Assembly (NCBI GenBank): GCA_018399535.1
Contig: JAGYOR010000004.1
Span: 1-35,737 of the forward strand
Source: Deltaproteobacteria bacterium
GTDB lineage: Bacteria; Desulfobacterota; Syntrophia; Syntrophales; UBA2210
Length of the DNA stretch: 35,737 bases
Reading direction: 5' to 3'
A program made the translations under genes and the position numbers. The notes beneath the pieces are model-generated. The model was not told the DNA's origin and made no database searches. It worked only from the letters and a program-made list of their open reading frames with translations. This document shows, one piece after another, positions 8,018-16,395 of the stretch (its first letter is position 1; every line of letters starts with the position of its first letter).

Positions 8018-9517
8018 TTATTCCGTTACAGGCTTCCGTGCATCCTCCAGCAAGTCGCTGCGTATTTCAACGAGAGTTCCCTTAGCGGCGAGTTGTTCCA
8101 TGAAAGAATCCGGATTTCCAAGCACAAGGAGAACGCTTCTGTTGCTTCCCAGGTACGCGTCGGCGCTGCGGCGTACGTCTTCGGCATCCACGGCGGCGAT
8201 TCTGTCGGTGTAGGTTTGAAGAAAATTATCGGGAAGCCCCCGGAACGCGTTCATCATTTGTTTTCTGGTAATTATGGATGCCGATGTAAATGAAAAGACA
8301 TGGCTGTTGATAAGTGATTTTCGCGATCGATCGAGCGTTTGCGCATCCACCGCGTTCCGGGCCAGGTCATCCAGTATGGCGTTTGCAAGGTCCACGACGT
8401 TTGCGGTTGATTCGGACCTCGTCATGGCATAGACGGCGACCACGCCGAAATCGCTTTTCGGTTCGTAAATGGAACCCGCGCTGTAGGCAAGACCTCTCCT
8501 GGTCCTGATTTCAGTCATCATGCGCGACTGGAAACCGCCTCCACCGGCGATGTCGTTAAGCACTTCCATGGCGTAAAAATCGGGATCATTTTCCCCGGGG
8601 ACCAGGTATCCGGCAACGATCACCGATTGAGGAAGATCTTTCGGCAGGTAGTAAATCGGGGCTGACTCCCTGGGGTCAGGCGGTTCGGGAAGCGGTTCGG
8701 ATTCTTCAAGGGAACGTGAACCGAACAGGTCGTTTAATTTTGTCCTGATCTCACGTAATGAAACGTCTCCGGAAACAGCCGCCATTGCCGGACCTGATTG
8801 AATGAAGTTTTTGTGAAAGGTTCTGCAATGGTCCCGTGTGATGGCCCGCACGGAATCGATCGAGGGCGATCGGCCCCACCGTTCGTCGTCATAGAGAAGA
8901 CGTGATAATTCGCGGAAGGCGAGCCGTTGCGGGTTGTCCGGAATACGCCTGAGATCCTCGACGGTGACGTTTACAGCATTTACCAGGCGTTGTTCGCTGA
9001 ATCGGGGATGGTGCAGGATGTCGCTGAAAATTTCAAGCGCGCGGTCAAAGGTATCGGCCGTCGCGTCGAGAGACAGCACCATGGTTTTCTTGCCGACTGA
9101 CACGGAAATATCGGCTGCCAGAAAATCAAGTTCATCGTCCACCTCGTCGGGAGTCATACGGATTGTACCACCCCTGATCATTGATTTTCCCGTCATGGCC
9201 GCCAGTCCCTCCAGTCCCGGGGGATCGAAAACGGAACCGGCGCGCATGGCCAGCGACAGGCTGACCAGCGGAAGTTCCCTGTCTTCCATGAAGAAAAGAA
9301 CCATTCCGTTGTCGAGAACGACGCGCTCCGGCGCCGGCGGGTCGAAATCAAGTGGTTCAACGGCTATAGCATCCGGATCGGGCAGGATCGGCCCGACGGT
9401 TACGCGGTCTTCCGGAACAGGGCGTCGCGGGCCGTCGTACGGGCCGAATATAGAGGAGCAACCGGCAACCGACAGAAAAAAACAGGAAACGAGCAGGACG
9501 CAATATACCTTCTTCAT
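8018..9517 (-). CDS. M16 family peptidase-like subunit lacking HxxEH (predicted non-catalytic partner), lipoprotein
   Basis: N-terminal signal peptide with SVAGC lipobox; M16 fold blocks; zinc motif replaced (GLAAMTGKSM); C-terminal FQSRMMTEIRTRRGLAYS block. Confidence 0.88.
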   Translation of the reverse strand: MKKVYCVLLVSCFFLSVAGCSSIFGPYDGPRRPVPEDRVTVGPILPDPDAIAVEPLDFDPPAPERVVLDNGMVLFFMEDRELPLVSLSLAMRAGSVFDPPGLEGLAAMTGKSMIRGGTIRMTPDEVDDELDFLAADISVSVGKKTMVLSLDATADTFDRALEIFSDILHHPRFSEQRLVNAVNVTVEDLRRIPDNPQRLAFRELSRLLYDDERWGRSPSIDSVRAITRDHCRTFHKNFIQSGPAMAAVSGDVSLREIRTKLNDLFGSRSLEESEPLPEPPDPRESAPIYYLPKDLPQSVIVAGYLVPGENDPDFYAMEVLNDIAGGGGFQSRMMTEIRTRRGLAYSAGSIYEPKSDFGVVAVYAMTRSESTANVVDLANAILDDLARNAVDAQTLDRSRKSLINSHVFSFTSASIITRKQMMNAFRGLPDNFLQTYTDRIAAVDAEDVRRSADAYLGSNRSVLLVLGNPDSFMEQLAAKGTLVEIRSDLLEDARKPVTE

Positions 9518-11052
9518 GGGTTTTCTTCACTTTCCAGGAGTGCTACCGTCCTGTTTTTTTTCACGAAATATTCGGCTGCAGCCGACTGAATATCATCAAC
9601 TTCGATTGAATCGATATGATCGAGATAGGTCGAAAGATAACCGCAGTCTCCCAGGGTTGCCTCGAAGTAGGATAAAACAGAGGCGATACCGCTGTTGGAA
9701 TCGAGCATGCGGTAAAGATCCCCCCGAATTCCGTTCTTTGCCTTTTGAAGTTCACGTCGGGAAACAGGTTCTTGTTTCAGCCGTTCAAATTCGTCGAGAA
9801 TAGCTGATTCCAGATCAGCGAGTGACACCCCGTCCAGCGGTTCCGCTTCCACCATAAAAAGATTTTCATACAATATGCCGGGACTCCCGTTGACCGCGGA
9901 AACGTCTCCGGCCAGTTCCTTTTCAATGACGAGAGAACGGTATAAACGCGATGAACGCCCCCCGGCAAGAATATTTTCAATAATATCGAAAATATAGTCT
10001 TCCCGAGCGGGTGCGGTCGGTTTTTTGAACCCCATGATAAGCCGGGGGTTTGCTGATGATGTAAGTACGGCACGTCTTTCGCCCTGTTGAGGCGGTTCGG
10101 TGGTAACGCTCCGGGTGATAAGATCGTCGGCCGGTGACGGTTCAAGAGCGCCGAAATAACTGTTGATAAAAGACAGGGCTTCCGAATTCGTCACGTCTCC
10201 CACGACGGCGATCACCATGTTTGAAGGACGGTACAGGGAACGGAAAAACCGGCTCAGGTAATCGATGTCGAGACGGGCGATATCGTCGCTCCATCCCAGT
10301 ATGGGTCTTCCGTAGGGGTGGGCGATAAAAGCCGTTCCCAGGAAGAGTTCCCTGAGCTGCCGCTCGGGACGGGAATCAACCACTTGGCGCCGTTCTTCCA
10401 TGACCACGTCCCGTTCAGAAAGAAATTCCCGGAAAACGGGATTCATGAGCCGGTCCACCTCGATCCTGGCCCACAGTTCCAGTGCGTTGGCCGGCAGGTT
10501 CACCATGTAGGTAGTCAGCTCGTAGCCGGTCGAAGCATTGAGGCCCACGCCCCCGCGTTCCCTGTAAAGCCTGTCTATTTCATTTGAGACGATGAGGGAA
10601 CGCTTTTCTTCCTCCAGCCGATCGATTTTTTCGGCCAGTTCCCTGGCCTCGGAGGACTCATTTCCATCACGCTCCAAAATCCGCTTCAGAGTCGATCGTG
10701 CTTCAGAAATCCGGCGGCGCAATGATTCTTCAGCTTGGTAATCGACGGTCCCGATGGTGGTGGTTCCCTTGAACATCATGTGTTCCAGGAGATGCGCGGC
10801 GCCGGTTCGACTGGTAAGATCGTCGACCGCCCCCGCACGGTGGCGGATATAGAGGGACACCGTGGGGCTTATGGGACGTTCCATGACGAGGACCCGTATG
10901 CCGTTTGGAAGGATTGTCTTATGAACCCCCGTTGTCGGGTCAAAGGCATTCGCCTGTGGCGAAAATGCCAACAAAATCAGCATGAAAAAAGTTGCGGCAA
11001 TCAGCGGAGCTGATCCGATCCACCGACCGTCAGAAGAAATACGCTTTCTCAC
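9514..11052 (-). CDS. M16 family zinc peptidase, catalytic subunit with HxxEH
   Basis: GAAHLLEHMMFKGT; distal Glu region SERDVVMEERR; GTG start overlapping the upstream gene stop (GTGA) behind AAGGAGG; its stop overlaps the downstream gene by 4 bp. Confidence 0.9.
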   Translation of the reverse strand: MRKRISSDGRWIGSAPLIAATFFMLILLAFSPQANAFDPTTGVHKTILPNGIRVLVMERPISPTVSLYIRHRAGAVDDLTSRTGAAHLLEHMMFKGTTTIGTVDYQAEESLRRRISEARSTLKRILERDGNESSEARELAEKIDRLEEEKRSLIVSNEIDRLYRERGGVGLNASTGYELTTYMVNLPANALELWARIEVDRLMNPVFREFLSERDVVMEERRQVVDSRPERQLRELFLGTAFIAHPYGRPILGWSDDIARLDIDYLSRFFRSLYRPSNMVIAVVGDVTNSEALSFINSYFGALEPSPADDLITRSVTTEPPQQGERRAVLTSSANPRLIMGFKKPTAPAREDYIFDIIENILAGGRSSRLYRSLVIEKELAGDVSAVNGSPGILYENLFMVEAEPLDGVSLADLESAILDEFERLKQEPVSRRELQKAKNGIRGDLYRMLDSNSGIASVLSYFEATLGDCGYLSTYLDHIDSIEVDDIQSAAAEYFVKKNRTVALLESEENP

Positions 11053-11371: not shown

Positions 11372-12748
11372 CTATTGTTTCCGGGTATGAGAGGCTCTCG
11401 CCCTGACTTTCAATGATCGGAGAAATTGTACGTCATCCGGGTCCGGCAGGCAGGGGAAAATCGAGTTGTTGTGGTAAAGTGGTTCGCCGGCCAGGTCCAG
11501 GTTTGAGGCGGCCAGGGCCGACGGCCAGAGTGGAGTATGGGGAATGGGCGAATACTCGGCGATAACCGGCCGAACGCCCAGCGACGAAACGTATTCCACC
11601 GTGTCTTCCATTTCCTTCCTGTCTTGTCCCGGCAGGCCGCAGAGCAGGTAAAGACCGATATCTTCGCCGCAGAACCCGGCCCGTTTCAGATGCCGGACGG
11701 CTTCAGCGGTTTCGGGATTGCTGATTTTGTCTCCCGTCGCTTTTTGCCTGTCGGCCAGCGAGGTTTCGAAACCGAACCTCAATGTTTTGAAGCCCGCCCG
11801 GTACATGAGCCGTGCGAGCGTTTCGTTCATTCCACGCAGGTGCATCCCGTTCGGGCAGTGAAATCGACATGAAAAGCCTCGACGCATGATTTCCTCGAGC
11901 AGGGGGACGAGGCGTTTTTCAGCGTTGACGACGAGGGCGTCGTCATAAAAGGAGAAATCACGAACGCCGTACGAGTCAACCCAGTATTCGATCTCGTCGG
12001 CCACCGACAGCGGGTCGCGTTCCTGAAAGAAACCGTTAAGATAGCGGGATGCGCAGTAACCACAGGAATAGGGACATCCCCGCGATGTAAGCAGAACGGC
12101 CTGGTCGAAAGACGGCAGCAGGTCATAGGCGGGGAAGGGGAGGGATGCCAGTGTTTCATGGGGCTCAAAAAAGTTGAGGTCCGTGCCGAGAAGCATTTTC
12201 AGCACGGCCCGGAGTGAGTTTTTGCTCTCGGGTTTTCGAAAAAGAACATCCCCTTCGACAACCAGGTCGGCTCCGGAGCGGGCGCGCGCGTGTTCCGGGC
12301 ACAGCGTCGCGTAGATGCCGCCCAGGGCAAGCGGCACGTCCGGGAACAGTTGCTTTATCATTCCGATGGCCTCAAACACACCGGGATACCAGTATGTCAT
12401 AACGGAGGTCACGAATATGGCGTCAGGACGGCCGCACCGGCGAAGCGCCTCCCTGAATCTGTCGGGGGACATGCCGTAGCGGCTGTAGCGGCGTGGAATA
12501 TGGGCAAGAGCGGCGGGTTTTGAAATTTCTTCCTTGCGAAAGCGGCCCCGTCCGTTTTTTCTTGTGCCGAAACGCAGGGCTTCGGCGTCGTTAAGACAAT
12601 CGACGAGTTCGACGCGGAATCCCTCGTTTCGAAGAACGGAGCCGATATAAAGCAATCCAAGCGGTTTCGCCCAGTAGTCATACGCGGCGAAGTCGTGGAT
12701 CCAGGGATTGACAAGAAGAATCTTTTTGTTGTGATCGTGTGATGTCAT
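11372..12748 (-). CDS. Cobalamin-binding-domain radical SAM protein (uncharacterised)
   Basis: N-terminal KILLVNPWIHDFAAYDYWAKPLGLLYIGSVLR (B12-binding-like), then TSRGCPYSCGYCASRY (CxxxCxxC) and a radical SAM TIM-barrel-like remainder. Confidence 0.9.
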   Translation of the reverse strand: MTSHDHNKKILLVNPWIHDFAAYDYWAKPLGLLYIGSVLRNEGFRVELVDCLNDAEALRFGTRKNGRGRFRKEEISKPAALAHIPRRYSRYGMSPDRFREALRRCGRPDAIFVTSVMTYWYPGVFEAIGMIKQLFPDVPLALGGIYATLCPEHARARSGADLVVEGDVLFRKPESKNSLRAVLKMLLGTDLNFFEPHETLASLPFPAYDLLPSFDQAVLLTSRGCPYSCGYCASRYLNGFFQERDPLSVADEIEYWVDSYGVRDFSFYDDALVVNAEKRLVPLLEEIMRRGFSCRFHCPNGMHLRGMNETLARLMYRAGFKTLRFGFETSLADRQKATGDKISNPETAEAVRHLKRAGFCGEDIGLYLLCGLPGQDRKEMEDTVEYVSSLGVRPVIAEYSPIPHTPLWPSALAASNLDLAGEPLYHNNSIFPCLPDPDDVQFLRSLKVRARASHTRKQ

Positions 12749-12919: not shown

Positions 12920-12949
12920 CCGGAAAAATGAGCCTGAAATGGAGAACCG

Positions 12950-14671
12950 ATGAACGATTCGGGACCGCCCGCACCGGAGTTGTCATGGCTGGGCATCCGG
13001 CCGTCGGGCCTTGCTGTCGCGGCGGAAGATATGCGCGAAGCATCGGAGTCCCTGAGGATCGAACAGGATATTTTTATTTATAAAAAGGAGGTGGACTGTC
13101 TCTGGATCGCCCTCCTGGGAGGCACCGGAACCGGCAAGTCCACCATATTCAACGCCCTGGCCGGTAAAGACATCAGCCCGGTCGGCGTGGCCCGTCCCAC
13201 GACAACATCGCCGGTGGCATACGGTCATCGTGATCATGCAGTCACCGGGAATTTCCCCTTTTCCCTGTCACGTTCCGAGAGAACATTACGCGACGAAACG
13301 GACGAAGGTTCCGTAACAGGAAATGGTGGCACTACCTTTATACGTTATGTCGAACACGGCGAGGATCACCTGTCGCATCTCGTCCTTCTCGACACGCCTG
13401 ATCTTGATTCGCTGGAATCGGGGAATCGTTACCAGGCACGCCTCATGTATCACCTCTCCCACGGCGTTATCTTCGTGACAAGCCAGGAAAAATACGCGGA
13501 CCAGGTTCTGTTTCGTTTCATGCACCGCGCGTCAGTGGAAAGAAAGCCCCTGTTCGTTGTGTTCAACAAGGCCGAGAAAGGCCAGACAGCGGCTGAACTG
13601 GTGAACGTTTTCAGGGATCGGGGTATTCCGCTCAATGAAGAGAGATTTTTTGTCATTCCTTTCATGGGAACAGCGGAACGTGACGGCGGAACGCTGCGTC
13701 GCATTCTGGAGGATTTTGTACTGAAGCTCCAGGAGGCCTTCTCACGCGCCGAAAAGGAAACAATTGTCCGCGAGGACCGGCAGAGAACCCGGCGGAATAT
13801 CGCCGACAAGGCCGACCGCCTGTTGGATATGATCGAACGGGAAAAACAGGCGGAAGATACGTGGGTTGAAAAGCTCGATTCACTCGTCGATTCCTCGGCC
13901 CGTTTTCTTCTCGAGGAAATGAAGGCACGGCACGAGCAGAGAAACCTTCACGCGATCAAGCGGGAAATAAAAAAAATATTCGGCGCTTATGACGTTCTTG
14001 CAACGCCCCGCGGCTACATAGCCTCGCTGGTCCGGGCGCCCCTGGACCTGCTCCGTATTCGGCGTCTGGAAACAGACGAAGAAAAAAAGGAAAGCCTGCT
14101 TCGGGCCGGGCGAAGGATCGATAATTCGCCGATTATATCGGCGGTTGAACGTTTGAACGTTCTGATTCTCGAAAATCTTTCGCCTTCGTCTCCAGACGCT
14201 CCGCTGTTCGCCGACCTCCGGAAGGGGGAAAAGGCCATGAATGAGCGTGAAATCGAGACCCGGCTTTCCGATTTACAGGCTGAAATAGCGGGATGGCTGG
14301 AGAACACGATTCGTGAACTTGAACGGGATCTGCCCCGGGGCAAGAAAGTGGGAATCTATTCTACCTCGGTGCTCTGGGGCGCGGCCATCCTGTCATTTGA
14401 AACGGTTCTGGGCGGAGGCATAACCCTCCTCGAGATGGCATTCAATACGGTGCTGGCGCCTTTTGTCACCAAGAGTTCTGCTGATCTTTTCGCCCACCGG
14501 GAACTCCGGGCGATCATTCGGGATATGAACGACCGATACCGGGGGGGAGTCCTTTCGATTTTCGAGGAGCAGCGTGACCGCTACACGTCGATTATCGCGA
14601 AATACGCAATACCTGAAAGCGCAACTGATGAATTGGCCAGGCTGAAACGGGAAATGGAGACATCGGCGTGA
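12950..14671 (+). CDS. Dynamin-like / 50S ribosome-binding-type GTPase domain protein (GTPase 1 of tandem pair), predicted membrane-associated
   Basis: P-loop LLGGTGTGKSTIFNALAG; G3 LLDTPDLDSL; G4-like FNKAEKG; TSQEKYAD; long charged helical segments; hydrophobic stretch VLWGAAILSFETVLGGGITLLEMAFNTVLAPFV. Confidence 0.85.
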   Translation: MNDSGPPAPELSWLGIRPSGLAVAAEDMREASESLRIEQDIFIYKKEVDCLWIALLGGTGTGKSTIFNALAGKDISPVGVARPTTTSPVAYGHRDHAVTGNFPFSLSRSERTLRDETDEGSVTGNGGTTFIRYVEHGEDHLSHLVLLDTPDLDSLESGNRYQARLMYHLSHGVIFVTSQEKYADQVLFRFMHRASVERKPLFVVFNKAEKGQTAAELVNVFRDRGIPLNEERFFVIPFMGTAERDGGTLRRILEDFVLKLQEAFSRAEKETIVREDRQRTRRNIADKADRLLDMIEREKQAEDTWVEKLDSLVDSSARFLLEEMKARHEQRNLHAIKREIKKIFGAYDVLATPRGYIASLVRAPLDLLRIRRLETDEEKKESLLRAGRRIDNSPIISAVERLNVLILENLSPSSPDAPLFADLRKGEKAMNEREIETRLSDLQAEIAGWLENTIRELERDLPRGKKVGIYSTSVLWGAAILSFETVLGGGITLLEMAFNTVLAPFVTKSSADLFAHRELRAIIRDMNDRYRGGVLSIFEEQRDRYTSIIAKYAIPESATDELARLKREMETSA

Positions 14672-16395
14672 TGGAATACCGCGACAGCCTCTTGAAGCTC
14701 GTGGAAGAATTCGAAGACCTCCTCGGAGGAGGCGGTACATTTCTCGCGCTGAATGAAGGAGAATCCGGCCGGCTTCGCGATCTTGTCGGCGGGGCGCGCC
14801 GCAAACTCGGCAATCTGGAAGAAGACGTACTTACCGTTGGTCTCATGGGTGGAACGGGCGTCGGCAAATCAACGATCATGAACGCCCTGGCCGCGGAAAC
14901 AATATCATCAACCAGCCATCGGCGACCCCACACGGACGAGGTGCTGATCTACCGCCACCAGGAGACCTCCCTTCCCGCGTCGTTCCGAATGACGGGACTT
15001 CCCTGCCGGGAATACCTTCACGAGGCGGAGGACGTGCGGAGCATCATTCTCTGTGATCTTCCGGATTACGACAGCATCGTGGAGCGACACCGGGAGACGG
15101 TGACGGCCTTTTTAGAAACGCTGGACGTGCTCGTATGGGTTTTGTCGCCGGAAAAATACGCTGACGGGCAATTTTATGATTTCCTTGAAAAAATGCCCAA
15201 AGACCGTCGTAATTATTATTTTGTTCTGAACAAGGCGGACATATTTTTTGACGGAGAAGAAAGGGACAAAAAGAACGGAAACGATCTGGAGACCGCCATG
15301 AGCGTCCTCAGAGACCACCTGGCCGCCGCCGGCATAACCGATCCGGTTGTGTATCACGTGTCGGCGGCCGAATATCTCGATAATAAAAAGCCGTCCTATT
15401 GGAACCAGATCGAACTCATGCGGAGAGAGATATTCCGTGAGAGGGACATCAAGGAACTGACGGGCATCAAGATGCTGAATATCGAAGCTGAGCTCGGACC
15501 CTTGTACAGCGCGCTGGAACGGGAAACGGCGGCGGTGGCCAGATTGCATGATGTGCTGGCTGAATGGACGAATATAACGGATGAAGAGATGCATAAAACC
15601 GCCGCCGACGTCGAACGGGCGGCCGAACCGTGGGCGGACGCGCTGGCGAAAGAATCGTCTGAAGAGCAGGTCCCGGTTGATCTCCTGATAGGTCCCGGCC
15701 GAGTTATTGAGCTGTTTGCCGCCAGGCTGCATGGAAGGGCCGGAAGCGATCCACGCAAAGCTTCCAAAATGCGGGACAAGGCTGTAAAAGACTTGCGTTC
15801 GGTTCTCAAGCGTCGTCTTGCCCTGCGGCGGGATCGGCTTTATTCGGAATTGTACCGTCGCCTTTCACTGGCAGGTATGCCCGGTGAGATCGAACGCTCT
15901 CTCGATTTCGACAAATGTCTTTCCTCGTTCGACGATAGGGTTCACGGTGTTTTGGCCACCGGCGGCAAGACACGCGCAGATGTACTCTCGCCGACGTTTT
16001 TCAGGGGCTTTCAGCGTTTTGTCTACGGCGCGCTGTTTTTGATATTTCTGATCGTTCTGCCGGGCAGGGATAACGTGAGCGCTTTTCTTGATAATCCCGG
16101 AGTCCACAAGGCCCTGACACTGGCAGTAGCGGCCGTTATTTCACTGTTCAGCGGTCGCGGCCTGGCGGCAATGGCCAGTCTCGTTCTCATCGGCTTTGCG
16201 CTTGGCTGGCGCTTCTATGGCAGGTATCGCAGTCTCATTCGGTCGATAGAAGAAAAAAGATCGCTGGCGATGCAACAGGCTACAGGGGAAGCGGCCGCCG
16301 AAGCATTGAAAGATCAGGCTCGAACGATACAGCAAGCGCTTGCCTTAGCGGAATCGAAGTTGTCGCATCTTCGAACCCTGCTGAATGATCGATAG
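14668..16395 (+). CDS. Dynamin-like GTPase domain protein (GTPase 2 of tandem pair) with C-terminal TM helices and coiled coil
   Basis: P-loop GLMGGTGVGKSTIMNALA; G3 LCDLPDYDS; G4 VLNKAD; VWVLSPEKYAD; TM segments VYGALFLIFLIVLP and ALTLAVAAVISLFSGRGLAAMASLVLIGFALGWRFYG; ATGA overlap with GTPase 1. Confidence 0.87.
   Translation: MMEYRDSLLKLVEEFEDLLGGGGTFLALNEGESGRLRDLVGGARRKLGNLEEDVLTVGLMGGTGVGKSTIMNALAAETISSTSHRRPHTDEVLIYRHQETSLPASFRMTGLPCREYLHEAEDVRSIILCDLPDYDSIVERHRETVTAFLETLDVLVWVLSPEKYADGQFYDFLEKMPKDRRNYYFVLNKADIFFDGEERDKKNGNDLETAMSVLRDHLAAAGITDPVVYHVSAAEYLDNKKPSYWNQIELMRREIFRERDIKELTGIKMLNIEAELGPLYSALERETAAVARLHDVLAEWTNITDEEMHKTAADVERAAEPWADALAKESSEEQVPVDLLIGPGRVIELFAARLHGRAGSDPRKASKMRDKAVKDLRSVLKRRLALRRDRLYSELYRRLSLAGMPGEIERSLDFDKCLSSFDDRVHGVLATGGKTRADVLSPTFFRGFQRFVYGALFLIFLIVLPGRDNVSAFLDNPGVHKALTLAVAAVISLFSGRGLAAMASLVLIGFALGWRFYGRYRSLIRSIEEKRSLAMQQATGEAAAEALKDQARTIQQALALAESKLSHLRTLLNDR

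Follow-up and report, generated by a model that had tools for sequence, protein, structure and literature searches.

Most bacterial dynamin-like proteins (DLPs) occur as side-by-side pairs, and the DynA and DynB proteins of Streptomyces interact with each other in vivo (PMC6104087). DynB is associated with the membrane via two transmembrane (TM) segments and binds DynA (PMC8748795, PMC5827413). The DLP pair of Campylobacter jejuni is a 2:2 tetramer, the GTPase activity of which requires heterotypic dimerisation of the GTPase domains (G-dimerisation), and it tethers lipids (PMC6104087). A tandem pair of genes encoding predicted DLPs, designated here GTPase 1 and GTPase 2, is located in a 35,737-nucleotide stretch of DNA from a Deltaproteobacteria bacterium of the order Syntrophales (contig JAGYOR010000004.1), which was analysed as a whole and is referred to as the window. 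The pair is a known kind of tandem DLP system, and, judged from its sequence and layout, the closest CHARACTERISED system is DynA/DynB of Streptomyces. The reading favoured here, to which we assign a probability of about 70%, is that of a tandem pair of the DynA/DynB kind, in which an anchored, GTP-specific GTPase 2 would be driven by heterotypic G-dimerisation with a GTPase 1 that is presumably impaired in guanine recognition.

12950-14671, plus strand: GTPase 1, first partner, in the DynA-like position, 573 aa (open reading frame, Dynamin_N match, AlphaFold2 model, and Foldseek)
14668-16395, plus strand: GTPase 2, second partner, in the DynB-like position (open reading frame, MMR_HSR1 match, AlphaFold2 model, and Foldseek)

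A reading of the window from its letters and translated frames (the sequence-only reading) had described two adjacent open reading frames (ORFs) of approximately 575 residues at 12950-16395, and these are confirmed, with lengths of 573 and 575 or 574 residues. The P-loops, the [Q/P]EKYAD blocks, and the C-terminal hydrophobicity that it ascribed to the two proteins are also present, as detailed below. The ATGA overlap that it reported between the genes has to be corrected to GTGA (or TGATG).

Structural models predict for both proteins a GTPase domain of the dynamin type, with helical stalk regions after it and a hydrophobic tip. GTPase 1 matches the Pfam family Dynamin_N above the cut-off (2.7e-10), and GTPase 2 matches MMR_HSR1 (6.1e-8). 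AlphaFold2 (AF2) models were built on family alignments and compared with structures in the Protein Data Bank (PDB) using Foldseek; the mean predicted local distance difference test (pLDDT) score is 76.5 for GTPase 1 and 85.3 for GTPase 2. The first 50 matches of the GTPase 1 model all belong to the dynamin superfamily; they include DRP1 (3.1e-8), the C. jejuni pair Cj-DLP1/Cj-DLP2 (9.5e-8), BDLP (3.4e-7), and IniA (1.8e-6), and dynamin, OPA1, mitofusins, and Mx are also in the list. The best match of GTPase 2 is BDLP (6.6e-11), followed by Cj-DLP1 (6.7e-10) and IniA (4.8e-9); SynDLP, mitofusins, and LeoA (2.7e-8) were found as well, with EHD and IRG GTPases lower in the list. The predicted structures contain the GTPase domain, helical neck and trunk (BSE/stalk), and hydrophobic, putatively membrane-binding tip expected of dynamins, including long stalk helices at residues 269-345 of GTPase 1 and 495-573 of GTPase 2. 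HMMER comparisons with solved structures returned mostly generic P-loop GTPases (EngA/Der, Era, IRG, and septins) and left the family unsettled. It is highly improbable that the proteins are not dynamins but GTPases resembling Era/EngA or septins, with helical tails: single-sequence and profile matches to EngA/Der, Era, and IRG structures point in this direction but are driven by the P-loop, whereas the comparison of whole-chain folds ranks the dynamin superfamily at the top for both proteins, and the long stalk helices also argue against it. Placement of the proteins outside the superfamily, which the sequence-only reading had named as a result that would refute its proposal, was not seen in the Foldseek searches with either AF2 model. 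Matches to NCBIfam and PADLOC models were weak, those to NCBIfam all far under the cut-off; therefore, neither protein was assigned to a named subfamily.

The sequence motifs of the two partners are as follows.

13118-13141, plus strand: P-loop (G1) GGTGTGKS of GTPase 1, residues 57-64, invariant in the family alignment
13391-13411, plus strand: switch II (G3) DTPDLDS of GTPase 1, residues 148-154, with Asp in place of the Gly of DxxG
13484-13501, plus strand: QEKYAD block of GTPase 1, residues 179-184 (alignments)
13565-13576, plus strand: degenerate G4 NKAE of GTPase 1, residues 206-209, with the Asp replaced (alignments)
14848-14871, plus strand: P-loop (G1) GGTGVGKS of GTPase 2, residues 60-67 in the numbering from ATG (alignments)
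15055-15075, plus strand: switch II (G3) DLPDYDS of GTPase 2, residues 129-135 (alignments)
15148-15165, plus strand: PEKYAD block of GTPase 2, residues 160-165 (alignments)
15229-15240, plus strand: canonical G4 NKAD of GTPase 2, residues 187-190 (alignments)

Both partners carry the G1 motif GxxxxGKS/T of the dynamin superfamily. DxxG is given as the general form of switch II in DLPs (PMC5827413); both partners and nearly all of their relatives instead have DxPD. This is treated as a motif variant inside the dynamin superfamily and not as a reason for exclusion, because the fold search still puts dynamin-superfamily proteins first. The DxPDxDS and EKYAD variants recur across relatives of both partners.

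The two partners differ in G4, the motif for guanine specificity. The Asp of this motif (NKxD) is gone in 16 of 18 first partners from Desulfobacterota pairs and present in 18 of 18 second partners; in Actinomycetota pairs, it is gone in 13/13 first partners and present in 13/13 second partners. Within these two phyla, the Asp is found only in the second partner at 29 loci and only in the first at 0. Both partners have it in 2 of 59 pairs from three phyla. No planctomycete pair has the Asp in both partners, and the partner bearing it varies by clade (loci L102, L103, L107, L110, L118, and L121 versus L072, L074, L082, and L094); one clade has it in the first partner and not in the second, as if the roles were swapped. 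The sign-test values for the asymmetry, 3e-5 and 2e-4, overstate the evidence because the pairs are related to each other; the real support is provided by the same direction of the difference in two phyla.

The partners also differ in their predicted contacts with the membrane.

14354-14470, plus strand: moderately hydrophobic, conserved stretch of GTPase 1 at residues 469-507, a candidate for the membrane-binding tip (paddle) (conserved columns, hydropathy)
16006-16062, plus strand: predicted TM segment 1 of GTPase 2, residues 446-464 (hydropathy 1.78; same place in relatives)
16111-16218, plus strand: predicted TM segment 2 region of GTPase 2, residues 481-516 (hydropathy 1.73)
16219-16389, plus strand: C-terminal part (residues 517-573) of helix 495-573 of GTPase 2, probable return stalk or coiled coil (AF2 model)

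Two segments of GTPase 2 reach 1.6 on the Kyte-Doolittle scale; GTPase 1 has none at this value, its best being 1.33 at residues 469-487. On hydropathy alone, the pair has the DynA/DynB-type arrangement of a second partner with two TM segments and a first partner without two. Similarly, in 11 of 13 actinobacterial pairs the first protein shows a single hydrophobic segment, whereas the second shows two TM segments, both C-terminal.

The relationship to the actinobacterial pairs extends beyond layout. A tandem array in the same order is present at 13/13 actinobacterial loci examined (Nonomuraea L127 and 12 from a draw of Actinomycetota genomes). The first partners from Actinobacteria match those from Desulfobacterota over 494 columns along the stalk (4.8e-34) and match the Desulfobacterota second partners over 216 columns of the GTPase domain only (4e-18). 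Actinobacterial second partners match Desulfobacterota second partners with 2.8e-39 versus 6.9e-30 for the first partners, in both cases over the GTPase domain. In a tree of 133 GTPase-domain sequences, the first partners from Desulfobacterota and Planctomycetota group together (97/89), and the second partners are placed elsewhere. In a tree of 84 sequences that includes the actinobacterial pairs, the labels of first and second partner need 2 changes, versus 28 when shuffled. A tree in which all first partners are forced into one clade has a higher likelihood (approximately unbiased test, p-AU 0.83), and the second partners form one clade with those from Actinobacteria and Phycisphaerales (SH-like approximate likelihood ratio test, SH-aLRT, 97 in a quick tree). 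The distances for the two partners are correlated across 18 Desulfobacterota pairs in a mirror-tree comparison (r = 0.94), to which shared species history contributes too. The simplest reading of these sequence relationships is that one ancient duplication was followed by co-inheritance; this falls short of proof because of long branches (first partners from Phycisphaerales and some from Actinobacteria).

Hetero-oligomeric action is the natural reading of such a locus, because bacterial DLPs are mostly paired and one pair has been solved as a 2:2 tetramer (PMC6104087). GTPase 2, as the subunit that is catalytic and specific for GTP, would reside in the inner membrane. GTPase 1 would bind to it from the cytoplasm through a heterotypic dimer of the GTPase domains and through the stalk. 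It may activate or regulate its partner, with a nucleotide specificity that is weak or relaxed, and need not read guanine itself. The hydrophobic tip of GTPase 1 could insert as a second membrane contact and thereby help to tether or bend the membrane. Binding and hydrolysis of GTP by GTPase 2 would power repeated rounds of assembly where the membrane is strongly curved or damaged or where the cell divides. A stronger form, which is possible but rather unlikely, is that the pair is an obligate catalytic/regulatory heterodimer, in which the ability to recognise guanine was lost repeatedly from one partner and kept by the other. If true, bacterial DLPs would be seen to operate on a new principle, that of a dedicated pseudo-GTPase activator. 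The results place the Desulfobacterota pair in a tandem dynamin lineage that is also present in Planctomycetota and Actinomycetota, and yield a testable prediction, based on sequence, as to the catalytic partner. The conserved loss of the Asp from one partner gives direct access to the question why bacterial dynamins pair.

Several observations weigh against a DynA/DynB-like pair with an impaired first partner. The Dynamin_N score of GTPase 2 in Pfam, 24.6 bits, is slightly below the 27-bit cut-off. TM-scores of the models against solved DLPs are low, mostly 0.23-0.5, plausibly owing to differing hinge angles; therefore, the assignment to dynamins relies on E-values and the uniform Foldseek lists. 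The tip of GTPase 1 is modelled with low confidence (residues 464-512), and 2 of 13 actinobacterial pairs have no TM segment in either protein. The link to DynA/DynB runs via the pairs of Nonomuraea and 12 Actinomycetota loci, which stand in for the Streptomyces sequences. The neighbours of the pair, which vary by lineage, do not indicate its biological role. In C. jejuni, the P-loops of both partners are required (PMC6104087). Two first partners from Desulfobacterota (L049 and L056) retain the G4 Asp, as do three from the family of the window (L009, L010, and L012); therefore, the loss is common rather than universal, and the impairment of GTPase 1 is to be read as presumed. These retained NKxD motifs in a minority of GTPase 1 homologues, the intact P-loop and switch II Asp of GTPase 1, and the generally lower conservation of G4 in bacterial DLPs (PMC5827413) would fit a symmetrical pair, in which each partner is a complete GTPase specific for GTP, like Cj-DLP1/Cj-DLP2, and the loss of the Asp from GTPase 1 is without functional consequence because another residue reads the base. 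Such symmetry is rather unlikely, given that the Asp is restricted to the second partner wherever only one partner has it in Desulfobacterota and Actinobacteria.

The two genes overlap at their junction.

14668-14673, plus strand: start/stop overlap GTGATG, with the GTPase 1 stop TGA within the GTPase 2 start (junction reads GTGATGG)
14656-14659, plus strand: GGAG, possible ribosome-binding site of GTPase 2 in the 3' end of GTPase 1 (from the sequence)

GTPase 1 starts with ATG at 12950, preceded by a Shine-Dalgarno-like GGAG at 12941-12944, and stops with TGA at 14669-14671. GTPase 2 ends at 16395 and has 575 residues if translated from GTG 14668 or 574 from ATG 14671. The GTG is the likelier start, because the GGAG sits 8 nucleotides upstream of it and a homologue from the same genus (L007) begins VTEYRD, without an ATG at this position. 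In most other loci, the start of the second gene lies between a short overlap and ~75 base pairs past the first stop; in five loci, no second-gene start was found within 160 base pairs of it. Since tight junctions are common across loci, translational coupling of GTPase 1 and GTPase 2 is plausible. Both frames are conserved, with an identity of 84-96% to two sister species and of 32-57% to the remaining members of the genus and family. The long conserved frames, together with the Pfam GTPase matches of both products, argue that the ORFs did not arise by chance. Scans for promoters and terminators found 3 and 8 sites, respectively, compared with 1.9 and 5.0 expected by chance, and nothing convincing among them.

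The two genes are inherited together. In a survey of 155 genomes of the class, all 13 that contain GTPase 1 also contain GTPase 2. Two genomes have GTPase 2 only, one as a 215-aa frame with a stop and the other as a 243-aa frame at a contig start. Whole gene pairs are adjacent, on the same strand, and in the order 1-2; one genome (G142) carries two such pairs. A scan of GTDB species genomes identified two-gene arrays in ~50 loci from several phyla; full pairs were in 17 loci of the Desulfobacterota type, in Planctomycetota, and, in a few cases, in Acidimicrobiia and other groups. Carriers with strain names are Desulfoferrobacter suflitae, Desulforhabdus sp. TSK, and strain NaphS2. Lone second genes in Planctomycetota are partly due to contig ends, with a truncated first gene upstream in L089, L097, L100, and L125; the first gene is absent from the locus at other apparent single second genes, for example L098, L106, L108, and L111. 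The side-by-side position of paralogous DLP genes and their joint inheritance are those of paired DLPs. The genome of the window encodes a further Dynamin_N protein on another contig (G000 C90:21908-22600; 801-aa frame, 71 bits).

The pair is present in all members of the genus that were searched and patchy in the family (8/19, the genome of the window included). This distribution bears on two other functions. The first is that of a factor at the division site that, like DynA/DynB in Streptomyces, gives stability to the FtsZ ring or septum, instead of a stress or repair machine. The layout and relatedness shared with the actinobacterial tandem pairs and the published role of DynA/DynB in Streptomyces (PMC8748795) speak for it. 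It is nevertheless unlikely: a patchy gene pair is not a core division factor, the DynB partner SsgB is specific to Actinobacteria (PMC8748795), and no division genes were seen adjoining the pair. The second function is that of a membrane-protection or phage-defence module, with which the patchy distribution agrees, and for which DynA of Bacillus subtilis sets a precedent in membrane surveillance and phage tolerance (PMC8844932). The PADLOC LeoBC/LeoA models match the proteins weakly (1e-9 to 1e-6), but mainly over the GTPase domain, and the surroundings of the pair consist mainly of housekeeping genes (dtd, IMP dehydrogenase, DNA polymerase III alpha, pgsA, and ppiD) and not of defence islands, which makes this function quite unlikely.

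Because the neighbours change between lineages, the pair is suggested to be a self-contained two-gene module. In the window, a gene for a B12-binding radical SAM protein (11372-12748, minus strand; Radical_SAM 3.4e-15, B12-binding 3e-12) is divergent from the pair. A functional link between them was considered, since a related gene adjoins the pair in G006 as well as in the genus, and is nearby in L049; it was rejected, as the related gene is not adjacent to the pair in G010, G013, or other relatives. Elsewhere, a gene for a DUF4126 membrane protein lies directly upstream of the first GTPase in L050, L053, L054, L064, and L126, mostly overlapping it, and a PpiD/SurA-like gene is located downstream of the pair in several Syntrophobacteraceae. 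A PgsA-like CDP-alcohol phosphatidyltransferase is encoded directly before the pair in L057 (2557-3171, overlapping) and L058 (7288-7935), where a link to phospholipids is possible. The DUF4126, PpiD, and PgsA neighbours hint at envelope functions, yet they are not common to the lineages. Farther away in the window, two overlapping genes on the minus strand (8018-9517 and 9514-11052) encode M16-type peptidases. The 9514-11052 protein has the HxxEH zinc motif (HLLEH) and its partner does not; judged from the translations only, they may be an active/inactive protease pair.

The sequence-only reading recognised no characterised member with the layout of the window pair and named it the best candidate for an undescribed system. 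Streptomyces DynA/DynB has such a layout (PMC8748795, PMC5827413), and together with the actinobacterial relatives it assigns the pair to a known kind. Of the systems cited for comparison in that reading, DynA/DynB proved apt, since the actinobacterial tandem pairs are related to that of the window, and LeoABC is the poorer choice. In Streptomyces, two DLPs act together, as is proposed for the window pair, and DynB (PMC8748795) and GTPase 2 each have two TM segments, those of GTPase 2 being predicted. The actinobacterial relatives share with the window pair the tandem arrangement and order, the DxPDxDS switch II in most cases, a [KR]YAD-like block, a first partner with a degenerate G4 and a second with the Asp, and the long profile match between first partners. 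By contrast, the host phylum differs, the similarity of the actinobacterial tandem relatives is distant and at the level of profiles, and the role of DynA/DynB in sporulation septation cannot apply to the window pair.

The other described systems resemble the pair in fewer respects. Cj-DLP1/Cj-DLP2 of C. jejuni (PDB 5owv and 5oxf) is a side-by-side heterotypic pair with the same overall fold, but the identity in structure alignments is ~10-16%, and the Cj-DLP proteins are obtained on purification as soluble monomers (84.5 and 71.2 kDa) that contact lipid via the tips of their trunks (PMC6104087), unlike GTPase 2 with its two predicted TM segments. The mycobacterial DLPs IniA and IniC are encoded in a single operon, and the IniA fold (6j72) is among the best matches of GTPase 2; however, IniA retains the G4 Asp (D202, PMC6715688) and the operon has a third gene, iniB. 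LeoA/LeoB/LeoC of enterotoxigenic Escherichia coli (ETEC) are tandem DLPs, and the LeoA fold (4aur) matches GTPase 2 (2.7e-8), but the second DLP is divided over two genes and switch II is the classical DxxG (PMC4159319). LeoABC was rejected as the home family, because the window has two intact ORFs, which score 13.7-17 bits with the NCBIfam LeoA model against a cut-off of 325. Bacillus DynA also combines two dynamin units, which act together, and its NCBIfam model matches GTPase 2 with its second half (8.4e-9). This fused protein (NF052648) was likewise rejected, as it is encoded by a single gene, with a model length of 1187, and the match reaches 33.8 bits against a cut-off of 1600.

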